From Owenia fusiformis (lineage: Eukaryota > Annelida > Polychaeta > Sabellida > Oweniidae), in assembly GCA_903813345.2 (NCBI GenBank), contig CAIIXF020000003.1, forward strand, positions 25,127,248 to 25,191,247: a stretch of 64,000 bases of DNA, written 5' to 3'. Under the pieces are notes generated by a model. The model did no database searches. It was not told where the DNA came from and saw nothing but the letters and a program-made list of their open reading frames with translations. Made by a program: the position numbers and the translations under genes. This document shows, one piece after another, positions 2,981-36,159 of this stretch; position 1 is the stretch's first letter; each line of letters starts with the position of its first letter.

Positions 2981-4165
2981 TTATGAATAATATAGAGAAA
3001 AAGTACTCCGTCGAATTGCGGCTGATAGATTAGGATTTGGGTCAGGTTCCTCAGTCATAAGTCTGATTTTTTCCCACTCGTGACTTTTTGTGGATTTCCT
3101 TACTGCATCAACTACGGCTTGCACATAAAGGCCATCTTCAAATGTTGCACTGATGCAAACTGGATCACGTGACCAACCATGCTTATCTTCAACAAGTTTA
3201 AATGCGTCCTTCACAGAGTCAATTAACTTGATCATGCCTTTGAGGTAAGGAGTCGGAAGATCCGCTCGAATGCTTTCAGAGACTCCAGATTTTTGTTCGT
3301 CCAGAATATTCAATACATCCTTATGTATTAACTCTTCTTTCAATGAGTCAGATTTTTGTCCATACAAATCTGCTCCGCGTGCTATGAGACGTCCCTTACT
3401 TCCACAAACCAGGATTTCATGACTATACTGTCCCGGAACATGGTTGTTAAGTGTGACCGTGGCTGCCGCCCCACGATTTAACTCCATTTGGAATGTACAA
3501 TAATCATCACTGGTTATTTGTCGAATTCCACAGATTTTATCAGTTTGCTTGGTGAACGTACGCAGCATGCCATGTACCCGAGTTGCAGTCTGATTGGTTA
3601 GGAATGTGATGACATCAATAATGCCACTGCCATGGATATTCAGTACTCCTCCGCCCATAAGATCATCGCACGTCCAGTCATATTTCTCCTTTAGGAGACT
3701 TCCACTGTGAACTCTAGCTTCAATCAAATATAAATCCCCAATATACCCATCATCCAACAAGTTCTTCATTTTTGTAAATGCTGGTACAAAACGTAATCCA
3801 TGACACATAATTGACATTAGTGAAGGATAGTACCTTGCTGCATTAACCATTTTGAATGCATCAAGCTGTTCTGGACCAGCGGGCGGGGCACATATGACAT
3901 GTTTGCCTATTCCTAACGCTTTAACAGCAACGGGCGATTGTAAATGAGGCGGACAAGCAATGAACACCAAATCAACCTCTTTATGTAAAAGTACCTCATC
4001 CACTTTATTTGTACTAAAGGGAATGGATAAATCTCGAGCTACGTCATCTGCTAACTCCTTGGTGCGTCCCCATAATGCCTCAACTTTGAATCCACAACTT
4101 TTGAAAATTGGGACCAAACATCGAATTGTTGTTCCAGTTCCAAATACCCCGATTCCCGGCTGCAT
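2981..4165 (-). CDS. GFOD: Glucose-fructose oxidoreductase domain protein (GFOD1/GFOD2 family)
   Basis: A 394-residue open frame matches the GFOD1/GFOD2 family over its full length (human members are about 390 residues). The N-terminus has a Rossmann-type glycine motif (GIGVFGTG, residues 4-11) for dinucleotide binding, followed by family-typical stretches such as ALWGRTKE, DEVLLH, KYDWTCDDLMGGG, GIRQITSDDYCTFQM and near the end RLMTEEP. The start is the first Met, giving the usual family N-terminus. The reading frame is uninterrupted, so the gene is intronless here, whereas vertebrate GFOD genes as I recall have a split coding region. In animals the family is secreted or matrix-associated, with little established enzymology; the substrate cannot be told from sequence. 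GFOD1 versus GFOD2 orthology is not decided: a single ancestral gene is likely outside vertebrates. Confidence 0.93.
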   Translation of the reverse strand: MQPGIGVFGTGTTIRCLVPIFKSCGFKVEALWGRTKELADDVARDLSIPFSTNKVDEVLLHKEVDLVFIACPPHLQSPVAVKALGIGKHVICAPPAGPEQLDAFKMVNAARYYPSLMSIMCHGLRFVPAFTKMKNLLDDGYIGDLYLIEARVHSGSLLKEKYDWTCDDLMGGGVLNIHGSGIIDVITFLTNQTATRVHGMLRTFTKQTDKICGIRQITSDDYCTFQMELNRGAAATVTLNNHVPGQYSHEILVCGSKGRLIARGADLYGQKSDSLKEELIHKDVLNILDEQKSGVSESIRADLPTPYLKGMIKLIDSVKDAFKLVEDKHGWSRDPVCISATFEDGLYVQAVVDAVRKSTKSHEWEKIRLMTEEPDPNPNLSAAIRRSTFSLYYS

Positions 4166-4898
4166 ATCGATTATTATTCCATATTACTATGCCTATTACA
4201 TACTCCAGTCTTGTGAACACGTTTCAAACACTTCAATTTTGCTTGATTAAACCTCTAAATGTCAGAAATATTGAAATGAATTCCAAATTTTCATAAATTT
4301 TTTGACCTCCTCTTGCGACTGACTATCGATAAATCATAATTTTACGACATCTTGATAATTAATACTAATTATTTTTATTTTAGTAGCAGATTCAGTACTT
4401 TTCCAGTATATCATGGTGTATATTGCAATGTGATTGTCCAAGAAAATGATACATTTTAGTTATTCTAATGAGTCAATTATCAATTTTACGACACTATGTC
4501 TTATCAGTTCATTTACGATACCCGGATGTCCAAAGTTATACAACATTTTAAAACCTCTGCCTTTTCGAGACTTTGGTCAAATATAGGGACAGCTGTGAGC
4601 AGACAATGTATGTGATCGTATTTATAAATTTTTTCTTTACATTTCTAGTCTATATTTTGCTAGATAGGGGTAGATGTAATGACATTTTTAATCAATCTAA
4701 AAAAGTAAATTCAAATATTTGGAATATTGCAATAAACATTTTGCCCACAGGAGGTTTCTCTTGCAAGAAAGATCAATTTGCAAGACAATCATTTCCATAG
4801 TCAGTTATATTTACTTTGTCTCAGCGTACCGTATGTGCATACATATCAGGGGCGTCACTTGTCTTTTTCCAAGGGTTGCATTATTGTATACGTTAAGG

Positions 4899-5012
4899 CT
4901 AGAGTACCGACAATTGTCGGTACTCTAGACTCTGATGTGGTGGCACGCTAGAGGACCGACAAATAAATTGTCGGTACGGGAGATATGCTGTGTTTACACG
5001 CTAGAGGACCGA
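4899..5012. repeat. Cluster of ACCGACAATTGTCGGT palindromes (left cluster)
   Basis: A perfect 30-bp palindrome lies at 4899-4928, centred on ACCGACAATTGTCGGT and flanked by CTAGAGT/ACTCTAG. Two further variants follow, each preceded by CACGCTAGAGG: one with a widened centre (about 4951-4976) and one half-site (about 5001-5012). The same palindrome returns three times at about 6634-6740. The pairing of clusters around a 1.7-kb segment looks like ends of a mobile element, but no transposase is visible. Confidence 0.6.
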
Positions 5013-6545: not shown

Positions 6546-6633
6546 GTTATTTCTAAACGTAAAAGTAGTGGATTTATTTATGAAATTGTCGGCTCTCTAG
6601 CAAAAACACGTAGCAGCCACTTGCGTACCGACA

Positions 6634-6745
6634 ATTGTCGGTTCTCTATCTGGCACTACTAGTTGACGATAGAGTGCCGACAATTGTCGGTACCCCAGCA
6701 AATACCCCAGGACAGTCTCCAGTACCGACAATTGTCGGTCCTGGA
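6634..6745. repeat. Cluster of ACCGACAATTGTCGGT palindromes (right cluster)
   Basis: Three copies of the core palindrome GCCGACAATTGTCGGT or ACCGACAATTGTCGGT lie within about 110 bp, separated by unrelated short sequences. They match the cluster at 4899-5012. Confidence 0.6.
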
Positions 6746-7164
6746 GCCACTCCGTATTGTATACGAAAATAAAACAGTCTCCATCATAGGCCCCTGCAAC
6801 ATTCTTGAAAATAATCTAGTCGAGATCTGTAATAGGGCGCTCTTAATGCACATTTTGAAATACAGTCTTAAAACTGATCTTGACTCGATGTTCCCAGGGC
6901 CTATGGTCTCTTTTTCCTCAGCACAATCAACAAAATCCATGTGGAAATGAAATTGCACCTTTCAGATGTACATGTATTAAGCCCGTATTAGCAAGCACCG
7001 AATATAGAAATGTGCTATTTAGATTATTGGCATGCTGTATAAACATACTATCATAACTGTTATGTTGTAAAACAATATTTATACTGAATAGGAATGTATT
7101 AAATACATTTTTGTTTTTATTGTTTTCAGCCTCACAATCCCTCGACTCAAAGAAGGTACACACA

Positions 7165-9812
7165 ATGGCTCTACTTGATCCAAATATTGAGACAAAAAAG
7201 GCAACATTTGCTCTCAGCTGATTTTGGTTCCCCGAGGCACAGTTTGGTTGTGCCCCGGGGGTGATCCGAACTCGTGTAGGGTATACGGGTGGAACTACAA
7301 AGTTCCCCACCTACAGGAATTTGTAAGTGTATATTGGTTGTTCATGTACCTGCCTACAGTATAGGGACAAACCTTTTATAGTCAAGAAAGCACAAAGGGC
7401 AACATGAGAAAATAATGTAAACTTTTTCATATTCTGTTCAGAAGCATTGTAAATGATTTTTATTTTAAGGTCATTTCTTTATAAACAGTATTAAAATTAA
7501 TAGGCATGAGTTTGAGTTATTACATTTTAAATCCCACGTAATATATAATGTTTAATTACACAATATATTTTACCTTATGCCAACTTAAACGAAGTACATA
7601 TTTCCACCTCATATAAATGCCTATATACAGATTAACATTGAATAAAAAAAAAATGCACTGTACTGCTGAGTAAAATATACTGCAACTGTTGTAAAATGAA
7701 GGTAAAAGTACCTTCCCCAGGAATTAATATGACTATGGAGTGAAATGTCACTTAGAAATATAACTTGAATAAAAATATAATCATACTACAAAGTACAAAT
7801 GCAAATTTCATTTATTTTCAGGGGAGATCACACAGAAACTGTTGATATTGATTTTGATCCTGATGTTACAAGTTACGAAAAACTCCTGGAAAAGTTCTGG
7901 AAGTCTCACAATCCAACACAGTCACACAGTCGGCAATACATGTCGGCCATTTTCTTCCATGGTAATGAGCAACGAGTTCAGGCTGAGACCAGCATGAAAG
8001 AACAGCAGAGCAATCTAGCCCAGCCTATTGCAACTAAAATCCTACCCGCACACCAGTTTTATGTTGCTGAAGAGTAAGACATTTTGTTTTATGTCACTAT
8101 TTAAAGAATTCTCCTTTTCGCAGTTCGCTCTTTGAATCAGAACGTTCGCAAATATGCACTGAAAAAGCACTCAAAAAGGACAAAATTTGATTGGTCAATA
8201 TTTTCCCACTATGCATTTCGCGTAGCTATTTGCGTGACACGAAAGTTCTAAATCAAACTAATTACTCAATTTTGTTTTTACACCCGCACGCTAAATAAAA
8301 CAATGACACCATCGTAAGTATTCTTCTTTGTCATTGCTTTAATGGTCAGTATACCGAGTTTAATCAATAAAAGATTGTACAATGAACAACAAAATTCGGA
8401 AACGAGTACTATACATTTGCTTTCGGACCACTGAACAGATTGACCTAGATAATAGCGACGCGTCTTCTTTGGTCTACTGCTCAGTTGTGGGTTTTCAACG
8501 TAACTCTATAATGTAATTTGAAGATGAATACTTTTATTCAGTTGTTGCATCGATGTCGCAGTTTGTAGTGCGGTAAGATTGGCATGAAAGTATTAAAAGT
8601 CGAATGGAATTGTTTTTTCCAATATGGCGACTAGTCTACTGATCACGTGACCTTCTCTTTTGGAATATTTTCTCACTTTTCAATCATCGTTTTCACCACT
8701 CTATGAATTAATACAATGAAAAAAATAGCTGTTATATTAAGATTAATGAGAGATCAATCGTTTCTAATAATTTTTTCTGTACTCTCGTACGGGAATATGA
8801 ACGAATATATCGTTTGAAAAATAGGTGTGAAAATCCCCATGTTAAACCTATGAGGGAAAATAAGGAAGTATAAATTTGTTCCTCCGCGAACTGCATCATG
8901 GGAAATATTTTGCCCTTATAAGGAAAGATTTTCGCGTCTTCTCTTTTGAAGAGGGAACAACGATTTCGATAATTGCACGTTCAGTTGAAAATAGTAACTA
9001 TACATAGGTTTTGGGCTAATACAAAGATGGCAGCAGCAGTATAAATAAACACAAACTGATTATTAAAAAATTATTTCTATCGGCCTTCAGTCTTATGCTA
9101 CACTATCCTAAAAAATCACTGTTCATCTATGAAATTAAATTTAATTTCCAGTTACCATCAGAAATACATGCTGCGTAACAGTAGAGATTTGTTTGATAGC
9201 CTCGGCCTAGATGGGGAAGATTTAGTTAAGTCACATGCCGCAGCCAGAGCCAATGGTTATGTGGCTGGCTTTGGAAAGCTTCAGGACTTCAATAATGTAA
9301 GTATGGAAACAGGACTTATCCAAAATGCCACTCAGAATATCCTGAGTTCACATATTTAAAGGTTTTTATCATAAAGTCAATGAAAGAATAAAGAAACTGA
9401 AAGAAATCGTCAAATTGTATTGTCCAGAGAGATGCTTGGATATTAGTGGTATGAATGCCCTTTTTGTTTTTGCTTCAGTGAGATTTTGAAACATACTAGA
9501 AAGTGATAATCATGTTCTTGCTCAGTACCTCAGATATAGCCTCAGTCTCCAGATGTTCAACTGTTTTTGACCATAAGATCCACATAGGCTAACCTAACAA
9601 TAAACTGTCCACTTATTTTACCACAGTAGTAAGGCATTAGTTGAAGTAACGAAAAACCAATATGCATGTTGATTATCGACTCTAAAAAACATAGTTGATC
9701 TTATTTTGACTTAACCTTAATATATATATTTCAGGAATGTGAAAAGATAGGTTTAAGCAAGCTTCAAATTGACCTCCTCCGCAAGACTCTCAAGTTCTTA
9801 CGTGGTGAATAG
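7165..9812 (+). CDS. msrA: Peptide-methionine (S)-S-oxide reductase, selenocysteine type (in-frame TGA)
   Basis: Four exons join in phase: 7165-7322, 7822-8073, 9152-9296 and 9735-9812, giving 210 residues counting TGA 7219-7221 as Sec19. The enzyme reduces methionine-S-sulfoxide in proteins. Family motifs run in order: ATFALS-U-FWFPEAQFG at the catalytic site (normally G-C-F-W), GVIRTRVGYTGG, PTYRNLGDHTETVDIDFDP, a variant of the HDPTQ motif (SHNPTQSHSRQY), and AEDYHQKYMLRN. The residues after the TGA stay fully conserved, so the frame is read through. All junctions have GT/AG borders. The exon is open upstream of Met1, so an upstream leader exon is possible. The C-terminal part after YHQKY (DSLGLDGEDLV... 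) differs from vertebrate MSRA. Cys28, plus one Cys in each alternative last exon, are candidate resolving cysteines. A SECIS-like hairpin lies downstream at 10787-10870. Confidence 0.88.
7219..7221 (+). other. msrA: Predicted selenocysteine codon (TGA) at MsrA catalytic position
   Basis: The TGA replaces the catalytic Cys of the G-C-F-W motif; the following FWFPEAQFG and all downstream exons remain in frame and conserved. Exchange of Cys and Sec at exactly this position is known for MsrA from green algae and some invertebrates. The codon needs a downstream SECIS, and a candidate is present. Confidence 0.85.
8074..9151 (+). other. MsrA intron 2; no gene seen inside
   Basis: Donor GTAAGA and acceptor TTTCCAG bound a 1.08-kb intron without a credible exon. 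A short segment near 9004-9050 (CATAGGTTTTGGG...AAAGATGGCAGCAGC) recurs at about 42128-42163, so at least part of the intron is dispersed repeat. Confidence 0.5.
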
Positions 9813-9937
9813 TGATTGGCCTTGTTCAATCAATTTCGGACTGAGAAACTATTTCTTTGTGAGACAAATTTCAGTTTGTCCATACAGAACACTGAAATGT
9901 TATTAAAATTATGTAACTGTATTATATACTGTTTCAG

Positions 9938-10009
9938 GAGTTTGAAAAGGTTGGTTATAGCAAGCGGCAAATTGACCTCATTTGCAAAGCCATCCAGAGG
10001 AGGTCCTAA
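9938..10009 (+). CDS. msrA: Alternative terminal exon of MsrA
   Basis: A second copy of the last coding exon starts after TGTTTCAG in the same phase (0) as exon 9735-9812. It encodes a 23-residue end, EFEKVGYSKRQIDL followed by ICKAIQRRS, against ECEKIGLSKLQIDL followed by LRKTLKFLRGE. The similarity extends into the 3' flank (AGTGATTG..CTTGTTCAAT in both), so exon plus flank arose by tandem duplication of about 200 bp. Both copies keep an acceptor, an open frame and a stop, so both may be used; the protein would be 208 residues with this exon. Each version supplies one Cys, at a different position. Confidence 0.75.
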   Translation, partial: EFEKVGYSKRQIDLICKAIQRRS

Positions 10010-10786
10010 CATGGTTGATTCCAGATTCTAAATCTTAATGGTTGCCCAGTGATTGACTTGTTCAATAAAATGAAATTGTATTACGCACTTTGGAATACTT
10101 TGGGACTCTTAATGCAATTTTTGCACATACTGAATAAAATACACAAAATTAAAAATGTATAAGATTTTCAATGCAATATGCAAAATGTTACATACATGCA
10201 CATAAATTCAGTCTGACACTCATTCTCAAGAACTACCTCGAATTGATCCTCAGTTCAATTACTTGGACTATGTTTTTCTTGAGGTGTTGTGTTAGACTGT
10301 ATCATATAGACAGGGTAATTACTCAATATCAGCTGGCCTGATTACTGTTTGCTTATACTCTGCTTTTTACACTAAGAGGGATTATTTACAGGGAATATCA
10401 CAAGGAAAATTCTTGATATTAATCAAGCAAATGTAGTGACCAAATGTATATATGGTATCCAGACCAGTGAATAACAGATATATCCCATGATCACTGTAAA
10501 GTTAGATGAATTAGCATTCATCATCTTATAACTCACTGTTAACACAGTACCTGAATTTTTATGGGACTATTTAATTATATGACACATGTCTCTGTTTGAA
10601 CATGGAATTTTCTCTTGAAAGCCCACATTTGAATTTATTTACTTTGATATACAAAGTAACTGTATAGCATAGTCAGTAAAGATAGAATCAGATATTATAA
10701 TATAGTTTACCTCTGATTATTTATATTGATATTTTATCTACACTAATGTTTGTATTCAATATTTTAAGCCTTGTTAAGATGTTTTT

Positions 10787-10870
10787 CCTGCCTTTTGACC
10801 TTTGTATGAAGTCGAATGGGAATTCAGCGCTTGAACCCTTGAGATTGATCTTTAAAAGGCATTATCAGGA
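10787..10870 (+). promoter_or_regulatory. Candidate SECIS element (form 2) in MsrA 3' UTR
   Basis: The SECIS core quartet is ATGA at 10806-10809 against TGAT at 10846-10849 (T-T, G-A, A-G and A-T oppositions). Helix I pairs GCCTTTT (10790-10796) with AAAAGGC (10854-10860), with CCTG/CAGG further out. Helix II runs for about ten positions, including tandem G-A/A-G and pairs ending GGG/CCC. The conserved unpaired AA is at 10821-10822, eleven bases after ATGA, followed by a mini-helix TTCA/TGAA, as in form 2 SECIS. The 5' internal loop (about 9 nt) is longer than average. Confidence 0.72.
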
Positions 10871-10943
10871 GATACATTTTACTTATAAAATTGTGTACAT
10901 TCATTTTATATACATATTGCTAGTGTAATGTGATTGTATTGTT

Positions 10944-10960
10944 AATAAATATAGAATAAA
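10944..10960 (+). terminator. Polyadenylation signals of MsrA
   Basis: Two AATAAA hexamers (10944-10949 and 10955-10960) lie about 80 bp after the SECIS candidate, so transcripts ending here keep it. An earlier AATAAA at 10064-10069, just after the second terminal exon, would give transcripts without it. Confidence 0.6.
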
Positions 10961-10974
10961 TTTGATATGATTTA

Positions 10975-12006
10975 TAATTTGTATTCTGAATATGAGGAGA
11001 AAAATGGATGATTTATGAGTGAACATTTTTGGCATCTTGTGATGTGCCATGATAAATCCCAACTAATAAAAATACAAAGATGTTGTACAAAGATCTTCCA
11101 TACCAAGAGGATTGTCTTCTAGACCTCCAACTGGATATTCGACCTTGATCTTGATCGATGACATTGAGAATGTCAGTATTTTTATAAATATGTTGTATGG
11201 ACTATTGATGCATAATCATTGATCTAAAAGATTTGAACTACTGCAATATTTTGATCACTTCTGTATTAAAAATTTTTTCTGGAAATATGACCAAAATTAG
11301 CGTTATGGATTTTGAAGTGAAAAAATGGCAGCTGCTTGATTTTGAATTTCGTAATCACAACTCAACCCTATATATGGCAGAATGTCGAGATGGACCCTCA
11401 GGAGCCAATCCTCCTTGTTTGCAAAGGAACTACAAGTAGCTCAACATATAGATGGCAGTAGTGGTCTGTCTATGTCCATTCATATACGTATTCTCTTTGT
11501 TGACCCAGTCACTATGGACATTGGGCCTTGGTGCGAACTTAATTTAATTTTTAATTGTAATATCTTAAAAACTTTTCCACAAAATGAATATAAATTCCCT
11601 CAATTTATAACACATTTTTCCCAATCAATGCTTTACTTTTAGAATTTATTTGAGGAAATTGTGGGCAAATAAGAATTAGAGGCAATAAGAGGAATAAGCG
11701 GCACAAGTAAAAACCATGGTGATTAGTTATAAGATTTAAAATGTGGATCCATTTCTTGCATCACATTTGTGGGAAATGGGTTTAACTTATCCATTAAATC
11801 CTGGTAATGGATACATATAATTTTTCAAAACATTATTTAGCTTCCCTGCCCTTGTTGATATCCAAATCAGCTTCTATCCATGGCCTGCTATTCTCTAACT
11901 AGGTTTGAAAGAACAATATCCTAATTAGCTATTGATTGGAATCCAAACACTATTTCACCCCGGGATAATTTTATTTTCGTTTAGTGCACGTACCGTCTCC
12001 GGGATA
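10975..12006. other. Intergenic DNA; nothing identified
   Basis: No open frame with splice support or recognisable repeat structure was seen between the MsrA poly(A) signals and the EF-hand gene leader. Confidence 0.5.
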
Positions 12007-17690: not shown

Positions 17691-17739
17691 ATGCAATATG
17701 TAAAAACTTTGTTCCCTCAGAGGGAATGCTCTCTCACAT

Positions 17740-19361
17740 ATACTTTACATGCAAGTATTTTATTTATGTATTGTAATTGTTGATTGTATTGTTGATTTTT
17801 TGGAAAAATTTAAAATATTTTGTGAACAACAGTTTGGTTTCAGAAAAAACAGATCAACATATATGGCACTTTTGAAGTTTCTGGAATCACTTCGTTCATC
17901 ACTTATTGATAAAAAATTTAATATTGCAATATTTATAGACTTATCGAAAGCCTTTGACACTGTAAACCATGAGATTCTTTTGGAGAAATTACATTTCTAC
18001 GGAATAAGGGGTATCGCTCATAACTGGTTTGCAAGTTACTTGAATAATAGAACTCAATCGACGGAGTATGATAATTGTGTATCACATCCTATCCAGATAT
18101 CACGCGGTGTACCACAAGGGTCGATTCTAGGACCTATATTATTTCTCATTTATATTAATGATATTGTGAAAACAACTTCTTTTCTAAAGCTTATAATTTT
18201 TGCTGATGACACAAATTGACTTGCTTCTGGTAAAAATTTAAACGAATTAGTTAATCATATTAACAATGATCTAGACATTTTAGATGACTGGTAAAGGGTG
18301 AACAAACTCTCGCTCAATATTGACAAAACTAAATTCATGTTTTTCACATCGCAAACTCACTCAAAATGAATCGCACCTTTTGAAAATAAATATAAGGAAC
18401 AGTAGTATTGAACGAATTAACAAAACTAACTTTCTTGGTGTAATAATCGATGATAACCTCTCATGAGAAAGTCATATCAAACATATCACTGTGAAGATTT
18501 CACAAACACTGGGTGTTTTATTTAAGGTACACAACAGATTAAATTTTGAATCTCTGAAATCAATTTATTATTCGCTTATAAATAGTCACTTAAGTTATTG
18601 TATTCTTGCATGGGGAACTGCAACCAAACGATTAATGGGTATGATTTTAAAGGTACAGAAACAGTTTCTGAGACTTATATCACATAGTGCCAAAGATACA
18701 CCCTCAGCACCCCTCTTTAAGAATTATAGATTTATTGACGTGTTCGAAGTTTATAAACTCAATGCTGCCTTGTTTGTATTTAATTGTATCAAAAGACCAA
18801 AGGAATTCCCTATCAGCATGTTCAATGATTATTTTATAGCAAATAGCAGTCCATAAAAGAGATACAAGAAACAAATTTGATCTCAGGTCCAATAATTTTA
18901 AATCAGTATTTGGTCAAAAATCCATCAAACATAGAGGCCAAATTATATGGAATGAACTCCCAAACTCCATTAGAGAAATTAACAGCAGAAATAAATTCAA
19001 ATCGGATTATAAAGAATTACTCATAAAAAATCATAGAAGTTAACATTAAATTCTAATCTTGATGGTGTAGACTTATAACTATTAATGCAAATGAAAGAGC
19101 CCCATAAACCTAATTTAACTTCGGATGTATGTAAATACCATATGCTATGCAAACCCTGCAACTTTCTATTTTTCTCTTTCCCTTTCTCTCTCGTTTCTTC
19201 TTCTTGTTTATTAAATGTTTAATGTTCAAGCATCAACTGTTTATTTGAATACTTATATAAGAAAGGCTACATACATCCAAAAGGATGTCAGGCCTAGATA
19301 TGTAAAGTATATGTAAATGTAAAGTATAGATGAATAATAAAAAAAAAAAGAAAAAAAAAAT
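17740..19361 (+). mobile_element. Decayed non-LTR retrotransposon (LINE), 5'-truncated
   Basis: The frame encodes a reverse transcriptase: FGFRKNRST, then [17 protein letters not shown], then [14 protein letters not shown] and the catalytic FADD at the end of the first open part. A TGA follows at 18217-18219, and further stops interrupt the frame. The C-terminal part reappears at 18491-18856 and on to about 19041 (WNELPNSIR, LLIKNH). A 3' A-rich tail ends the element near 19335-19361. The upstream endonuclease domain is absent, as in a 5'-truncated insertion. It resembles the Jockey/CR1-like superfamily; I cannot assign a family. It lies in an intron of the EF-hand gene in the sense orientation. 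Confidence 0.88.
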
Positions 19362-34860: not shown

Positions 34861-35217
34861 ACATGTACTTTTGGTTGTTTTTAAAAAAGGTTTGAACCCG
34901 GGGGGTATTCAATTAGTGTACGTCCAAAAATACAAGGTGTCGTACAATTCGTCTGTTTCGACCTCAGACATCACAGTATTTTGTCAAAGAAGTGATGTCT
35001 GGAGCATAGTGACATTGCCATGTTTCGTGAAGTTGTTATTATAACCCTATGTTTATTTACTAAAAAAGTACCGAGCACTAAGCGATTGTAAAGGGTGGAT
35101 GTGTTTTGGAATGACCTCTTCACAGCTTTCTGTGTCGGACGCCATTCTGAGAACGTATACACAGGGGCATTTTGGGAAAATGTGATTTATATATGGCTGA
35201 TTCTCTGAGGCAAAATT

Positions 35218-36064
35218 GGATAACAGTGACTGTCTCTAAGGCAAAACGGGGCAGCAGTGACTTCCTCTAAGGCAAAACGGGGCAACAGTGACTGTCTCTG
35301 AGGCAAAACGGGACAACATTGACATTCTCTGAGGCAAAACGGGACAACAATGACACCTTTCTGAGACAAAATGGGACAACATTGACTTTCTCTGAGACAA
35401 AGTGGGACAACATTGACTTTCTCTGAGACAAAATGGGACAACAATGACTTTCTCTGAGACAAAACAGGACAACATTGACTTTCTCTGAGGCAAAACGGGA
35501 CAACATTGACTATGAGGCAAAACGGGATAACATTAACTTTCTCTGAGACAAAACAGGACAACATTGACTTTCTCTGAGGCAAAACGGGACAAGGCAAAAC
35601 GGGACAACATTGACTTTCTCTGAGGCAAAACAGGACAACATTTACTTTCTCTGAGGCAAAACGGGACAACATTGACTTTCTCTGAGACAAAATGGGACAA
35701 CATTGACTTTCTCTGAGACAAAACAGGACAACATTAACTTTCTCTGAGGCAAAACGGGACAACAATGACACCTTTCTGAGACAAAATGGGACATCAATGA
35801 CTTTCTCTGAGCCAAAATGGGACAAAATTGACTTTCTCTGAGACAAAATGGGACAACAATGACTTTCTCTGAGACAAAATGGGACAACATTGACTTTCTC
35901 TGAGACAAAATGGGACAACATTGACTTTCTCTGAGACAAAACGGGACAACAGTGACTTTCTCTGAGACAAAATGGGACAATATTGACTTTCTCTGAGACA
36001 AAATGGGACAACATTGACTTTCTCTGAGACAAAATGGGACAACAATGACTTTCTCTGAGGCAAA
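35218..36064. repeat. 31-bp minisatellite, about 27 copies
   Basis: The unit GGGACAACATTGACTTTCTC followed by TGAGACAAAAT recurs every 31 bp, with A/G variants (GAGACAAAATGGG versus GAGGCAAAACGGG) in blocks that suggest higher-order expansion, and a few truncated copies (near 35510 and 35590). Since 31 is not a multiple of 3, the minus strand cycles through all three frames and stays open, producing a 281-codon frame and several shadows. These are not expected to be proteins. Confidence 0.95.
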
Positions 36065-36159
36065 ACTCTGAAAAAATAATAACTTTTTAACTTCTCAAAT
36101 GCAGAATGATGCTAAGATCATGCTATTGAGTAGACTCGATTTTGCTTTTAATTATCCTG

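Follow-up and report, generated by a model that had tools for sequence, protein, structure and literature searches.

Selenoprotein forms of peptide-methionine (S)-S-oxide reductase (MsrA) are known from bacteria, algae and animals. The C. oremlandii enzyme (CoMsrA; solved chains 4lwj and 4w8c, PMC4333827; this and the other papers below are cited from part of their text) is the best solved relative of the protein described here, and has a catalytic selenocysteine (Sec) site in an N-terminal catalytic domain that is followed by a C-terminal helical domain. Its activity is reported to be nearly abolished when the helical domain is absent, and the excerpted text describes it as lacking Cys apart from its catalytic Sec (PMC4333827). 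The enzyme is also reported to dimerise through its catalytic residue and to be resolved by glutaredoxin (PMC4479559, in part). In animals, a 2012 survey tabulates Sec-MsrA in five of six marine invertebrates (Amphimedon, Trichoplax, Nematostella, Capitella and Branchiostoma, not Lottia) and gives vertebrate MsrA as the Cys form (PMC3473315, in part). The annelid Capitella is entered there with two Sec-MsrA copies, one incomplete and without a SECIS element in the excerpted text, for which gene decay was proposed. Sec-MsrA is listed for Ostreococcus and Thalassiosira (PMC2375036, in part), and MsrA is counted as one of the algal Sec proteins with the widest distribution (PMC7539508, in part).

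We examined a 64,000-nucleotide stretch (the window) of the annelid Owenia fusiformis, lying on contig C3 of the 498-Mb, 525-contig genome that was searched; a literature search on selenoproteins of Owenia found no publication. The window holds a gene that very probably encodes a Sec-MsrA with a helical domain, its UGA at 7219 probably being decoded as Sec19 by means of a hairpin at 10789-10861 that would serve as SECIS, and its last exon being tandemly duplicated. The gene resembles the marine-invertebrate Sec-MsrAs as an animal MsrA in Sec form (PMC3473315, in part); the likeness to algal and diatom Sec-MsrA is drawn from the published listing. Because animal Sec-MsrA was already tabulated in the consulted part of that 2012 survey, the gene is less novel than the first-pass annotation of this DNA had implied.

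Gene structure and family

A scripted GT-AG exon search joined four forward-strand exons, at 7165-7322, 7822-8073, 9152-9296 and 9735-9812, into a single frame of 633 nt. All three donors start gtaag, every acceptor has cag as its last bases, and the phases match. The only in-frame internal stop is TGA 7219-7221 and there is no frameshift, which bears out the earlier claim that the frame continues past the TGA through four in-phase exons. Annotation pipelines often truncate such genes at the TGA; with it read as Sec, the spliced product has 210 residues and Sec at position 19.

The coding part of exon 1 opens with ATG 7165 and supplies residues 1-52 and part of residue 53. This start agrees with that of CoMsrA (query residues 5-196 align to chain residues 2-197), and the exon itself may begin in the 5′ UTR, as there is an acceptor-like cag ending at about 7129. 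Exon 2 corresponds to a Pfam PF01625 match at C3:25135070-25135324, and the TAA inside that match falls beyond the exon 2 donor. Exon 3, placed by its splice borders and by Pfam, holds the start of the helical domain, and the last exon (copy a, ECEKIGLSKLQIDLLRKTLKFLRGE), placed by splice borders and phase, carries Cys 187 and the stop TAG. No targeting peptide is evident in the MsrA exons found. Four copies of the perfect palindrome CCGACAATTGTCGG lie in the window (4907-4920, 6628-6641, 6677-6690 and 6725-6738), and 100 shuffles gave none; three of the copies are spaced 48-49 bases apart and lie immediately upstream of the MsrA gene.

The product scores 143.4 bits for Pfam PMSR (PF01625; cut-off 23.7, residues 12-148), 126 bits for NCBIfam TIGR00401 msrA (cut-off 108.1), and, with exon a, 39.2 bits for Pfam MsrA_helical (PF20939, "Selenoprotein MsrA, helical domain"; cut-off 23.7, residues 155-201). 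By sequence it belongs to the selenoprotein subfamily of peptide-methionine (S)-S-oxide reductases that have a C-terminal helical domain. Thirty solved sequences matched it, the top seven (E 1.6e-48 to 3.7e-41) belonging to the C. oremlandii type and the remaining 23 ranging from 3.1e-27 to 2.2e-11. Among the C. oremlandii-type chains, the alignment of the full-length ones starts at query residue 5 and ends at 196 or 197, and the letters of 4u66 and 7c13 in the match are identical to those of 4lwj and 4w8c. Alignment with the solved sequences sets TGA 7219-7221 (ALS-U-FWF) at the catalytic Cys position of MsrA, where the first-pass annotation had placed it. Unlike CoMsrA, the window protein has C29 plus either C187 or C201, and its active-site motif is SUFWF as against a GCFWG-type motif.

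The same genome has one copy of a canonical Cys MsrA, on C7, with the motif GCFWG. It has the catalytic domain in common with the window protein (38% identity over 163 aligned positions) and shows no helical-domain extension in their alignment. A TGA also lies within an MsrB exon, read as SRFUIFSDSLKF, and from these sequences the animal appears to own both a Cys-type and a Sec-type MsrA together with a Sec-type MsrB.

Elsewhere in the window, 2981-4183 on the reverse strand is a 400-residue open frame with GFO_IDH_MocA domains, presumably a GFOD-type oxidoreductase. A reverse transcriptase fragment (RVT_1), a retroelement remnant, lies at 17704-18219 on the forward strand. Long open frames at 35187-36094 on the reverse strand arise from a tandem repeat (with units such as SQRKSMLSHFVSEKVNVVPFCLRE) that can be read in two frames.

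The catalytic codon in bacterial relatives

Relatives were sought in 398 genomes from the phylum of Anaerotalea alkaliphila, 178 of which gave a match. In the best 18 (E <= 5.1e-36), 16 matches contain exactly one TGA and two have no stop; among the matches listed below these, most have no stop. We read the catalytic site in 12 bacterial loci taken from the best 18, and TGA stands at the same codon in 11 of them (UFWG), the twelfth being CFWG. Contig searches for relatives gave one distant match in genome contigs and one in viral contigs.

Between the window protein and these 12 relatives, identity is 41-49%; of the 46 columns that are invariant among the 12, the window protein shares 41. The five departures are G18S, G22F, D24E, A41T and Q145R, the first two of which flank the catalytic Sec-Phe-Trp and yield SUFWF: the catalytic position, F and W are kept, and both glycines are replaced. 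Loss of these two motif glycines could be taken as the mark of a recent pseudogene, decaying with its TGA as a true stop, and such a fate has a possible annelid parallel in Capitella Ct.MsrA_b, incomplete and SECIS-less as excerpted from PMC3473315. We regard this as very improbable here, however, since the frame has no further stop or frameshift, every splice border is intact, most invariant columns are retained as counted above, the closest relatives usually have TGA at the same codon, and a SECIS-like hairpin is present.

A candidate SECIS element and the Sec machinery

RNAfold and a descriptor scan identify a stem-loop at 10789-10861 on the forward strand, which we take to have the form 2 SECIS shape. 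Its helix I arms are 10789-10798 and 10852-10861 (UGCCUUUUGA/UUAAAAGGCA), and its core comprises ATGA at 10806-10809, AA at 10821-10822 (11 bases past ATGA) and TGAT at 10846-10849; the quartet, the AA eleven bases on and the paired helix I had all been called at first pass, and are confirmed. Folded alone, 10787-10867 forms helix I, an internal loop (UGA, GAU), an AGUC/GAUU stem, a 4x4 loop and GGG/CCC pairs, above which come the bulged AA and a small UUCA/UGAA stem at the apex. The outer pairs of the minimum-energy fold change when longer flanks are included. Fold energy is unremarkable against shuffles, with z of -0.97 for 10787-10867 and -1.76 and -1.88 with more flank.

The descriptor combined ATGA, AA 10-13 bases on, TGA, an AA unpaired in the fold, and an outer duplex. 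Applied to both strands of the 64 kb it gave 242 candidate foldings, some sites being counted more than once; the hairpin ranks second of all 242 by energy score and first of the 68 whose helix II has six pairs or more, and no other descriptor site lies in 9813-11000. In 400 one-strand shuffles (dinucleotides kept, 4-kb blocks) its score was reached 47 times with both thresholds applied and 57 times on total energy only. The resulting rate of 0.0018-0.0022 per kb at the hairpin's score or better is only indicative, because the descriptor was written after the hairpin had been seen and the threshold is the hairpin's own score.

At the gathering threshold no Rfam SECIS was found in the whole window, and Rfam SECIS_1 gave no match up to E 10 in 6600-11600 or 10740-10920. 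The sensitivity of SECIS_1 looks low here, because a GPx-adjacent site reaches only 24.9 bits where the cut-off is 35. Over the genome, 150 of 11,850 first-look candidates were scored with this model and three sites were listed, one of them adjoining a GPx exon. The best-scoring genome site was set aside, with no selenoprotein gene recognised in the flanking ORF lists, as was another whose flank, judged by eye, looks like an SLC23-type transporter. As a control, the descriptor gave strong matches in two of four GPx 3′ flanks (those two genes being putative Sec-type GPx) and found nothing in the other two. A relaxed version, run on the flanks of two MsrB, one Sep15/SelM and two Rdx-family genes, listed no site with the full ATGA/AA/TGA set. 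A covariance model built from this genome's own SECIS elements was abandoned, as only two were convincing (both in GPx flanks), too few for the purpose.

The hairpin could be a chance fold, with the true SECIS elsewhere in the 3′ UTR; its modest z-score and its going unrecognised by Rfam would fit, but it is the sole descriptor site downstream of the coding exons as far as 11000 and stands at or near the head of the window's candidates in both rankings, and we judge a chance origin quite unlikely. The hairpin is likely, though not proven, to be the SECIS of this gene. Two AATAAA motifs 3′ of it on the forward strand (10944..10960, at 10944 and 10955) are possible poly(A) signals, and are weak evidence alone because AATAAA occurs at 1.6 per kb in the window. 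The motif is also found upstream of the hairpin, at 10064 and 10133, and transcripts ending there would drop it.

The Rfam cut-off is passed by three tRNA-Sec genes, all with anticodon tca (ARAGORN); 26 further listed matches fall below it. Eight matches to the Sec synthase family SepSecS cluster on C5, although this family also matches Bacillus subtilis among the controls, and a family match is therefore not wholly specific. The machinery search covered tRNA-Sec and SepSecS. For GPx, three of 11 matches contain TGA, one of them read as VASKUGFTAKNY. A cluster of GPx exon matches lies at C9:10659509-10666053 on the reverse strand, two of them containing TGA, and a strong SECIS-like element sits in one flank there.

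By a wide margin, the locus is best read as a Sec-MsrA gene, because TGA is usual in the closest bacterial relatives, the product matches PF20939, a SECIS-like hairpin lies 3′ on the right strand, and the genome has tRNA-Sec, SepSecS and TGA-containing selenoprotein exons. The same four lines make it probable, in keeping with the first-pass view, that this animal makes a Sec-MsrA. In the mechanism we propose, UGA 7219 would be read as Sec19 by the usual eukaryotic Sec machinery with the hairpin as SECIS. Sec19 would then attack methionine-S-sulfoxide and become oxidised, and its recycling would fall either to a partner or to a cysteine of the protein itself (C29 or the C-terminal Cys).

A duplicated last exon

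The stretch 9938-10009 repeats the last exon (9735-9812) in tandem, with 80% identity over 56 nt that include the acceptor end. This copy b (EFEKVGYSKRQIDLICKAIQRRS), also on the forward strand and absent from the first-pass annotation, is in the same phase as copy a, has its own acceptor and its own stop (TAA), and is a possible alternative last exon. Exon 3 could be spliced to either copy; the frame would be kept, and the hairpin would lie downstream of the stop both ways. The two rival final exons could therefore give two slightly different enzymes, with the C-terminal Cys at position 187 from exon a or 201 from exon b. Without a last exon the PF20939 score is 27.7 bits, and it rises to 39.2 with exon a and 37.7 with exon b.

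Over the 17 best-aligned (first) codons the copies differ by five synonymous and seven nonsynonymous changes, giving dS 0.88 and dN 0.19 (Fisher p 0.027 for these 17 codons only, computed from site counts). The contrast is smaller over 23 codons, at dS 1.00 and dN 0.41. The motif GLS, present in nine of 12 bacterial sequences, is kept in copy a, and copy b has GYS.

We put at about even chances that the gene makes a functional Sec-MsrA with only one of these last exons, the other being a dead copy and no alternative isoform being formed. The exons are short, the dS/dN contrast comes from that handful of differences and is weaker over the longer alignment, and the GLS motif survives in one copy only, all of which would suit a dead copy; against this, acceptor, phase and stop are intact in both copies and either one raises the helical-domain score. 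More tentatively, we suggest as a possibility on the unlikely side that two Sec-MsrA enzymes are produced from this gene through a choice between tandem last exons that have one SECIS in common. The choice would rebuild the end of the helical domain, on which the active site depends, and shift the sole C-terminal Cys from residue 187 to 201, which may switch the way in which the oxidised selenoenzyme is recycled; SUFWF would in that case mark an altered preference for substrate or reductant. No description of the alternative last exon or of the SUFWF motif was found in the published literature consulted, which was surveyed mostly at title level.

The Owenia gene is a well-supported animal addition to the selenoprotein Sec-MsrA, whose vertebrate counterpart is the Cys form. 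Its duplicated last exon offers a cheap test of whether a single selenoprotein gene may swap its C-terminal helical end and the position of its Cys while keeping its SECIS.
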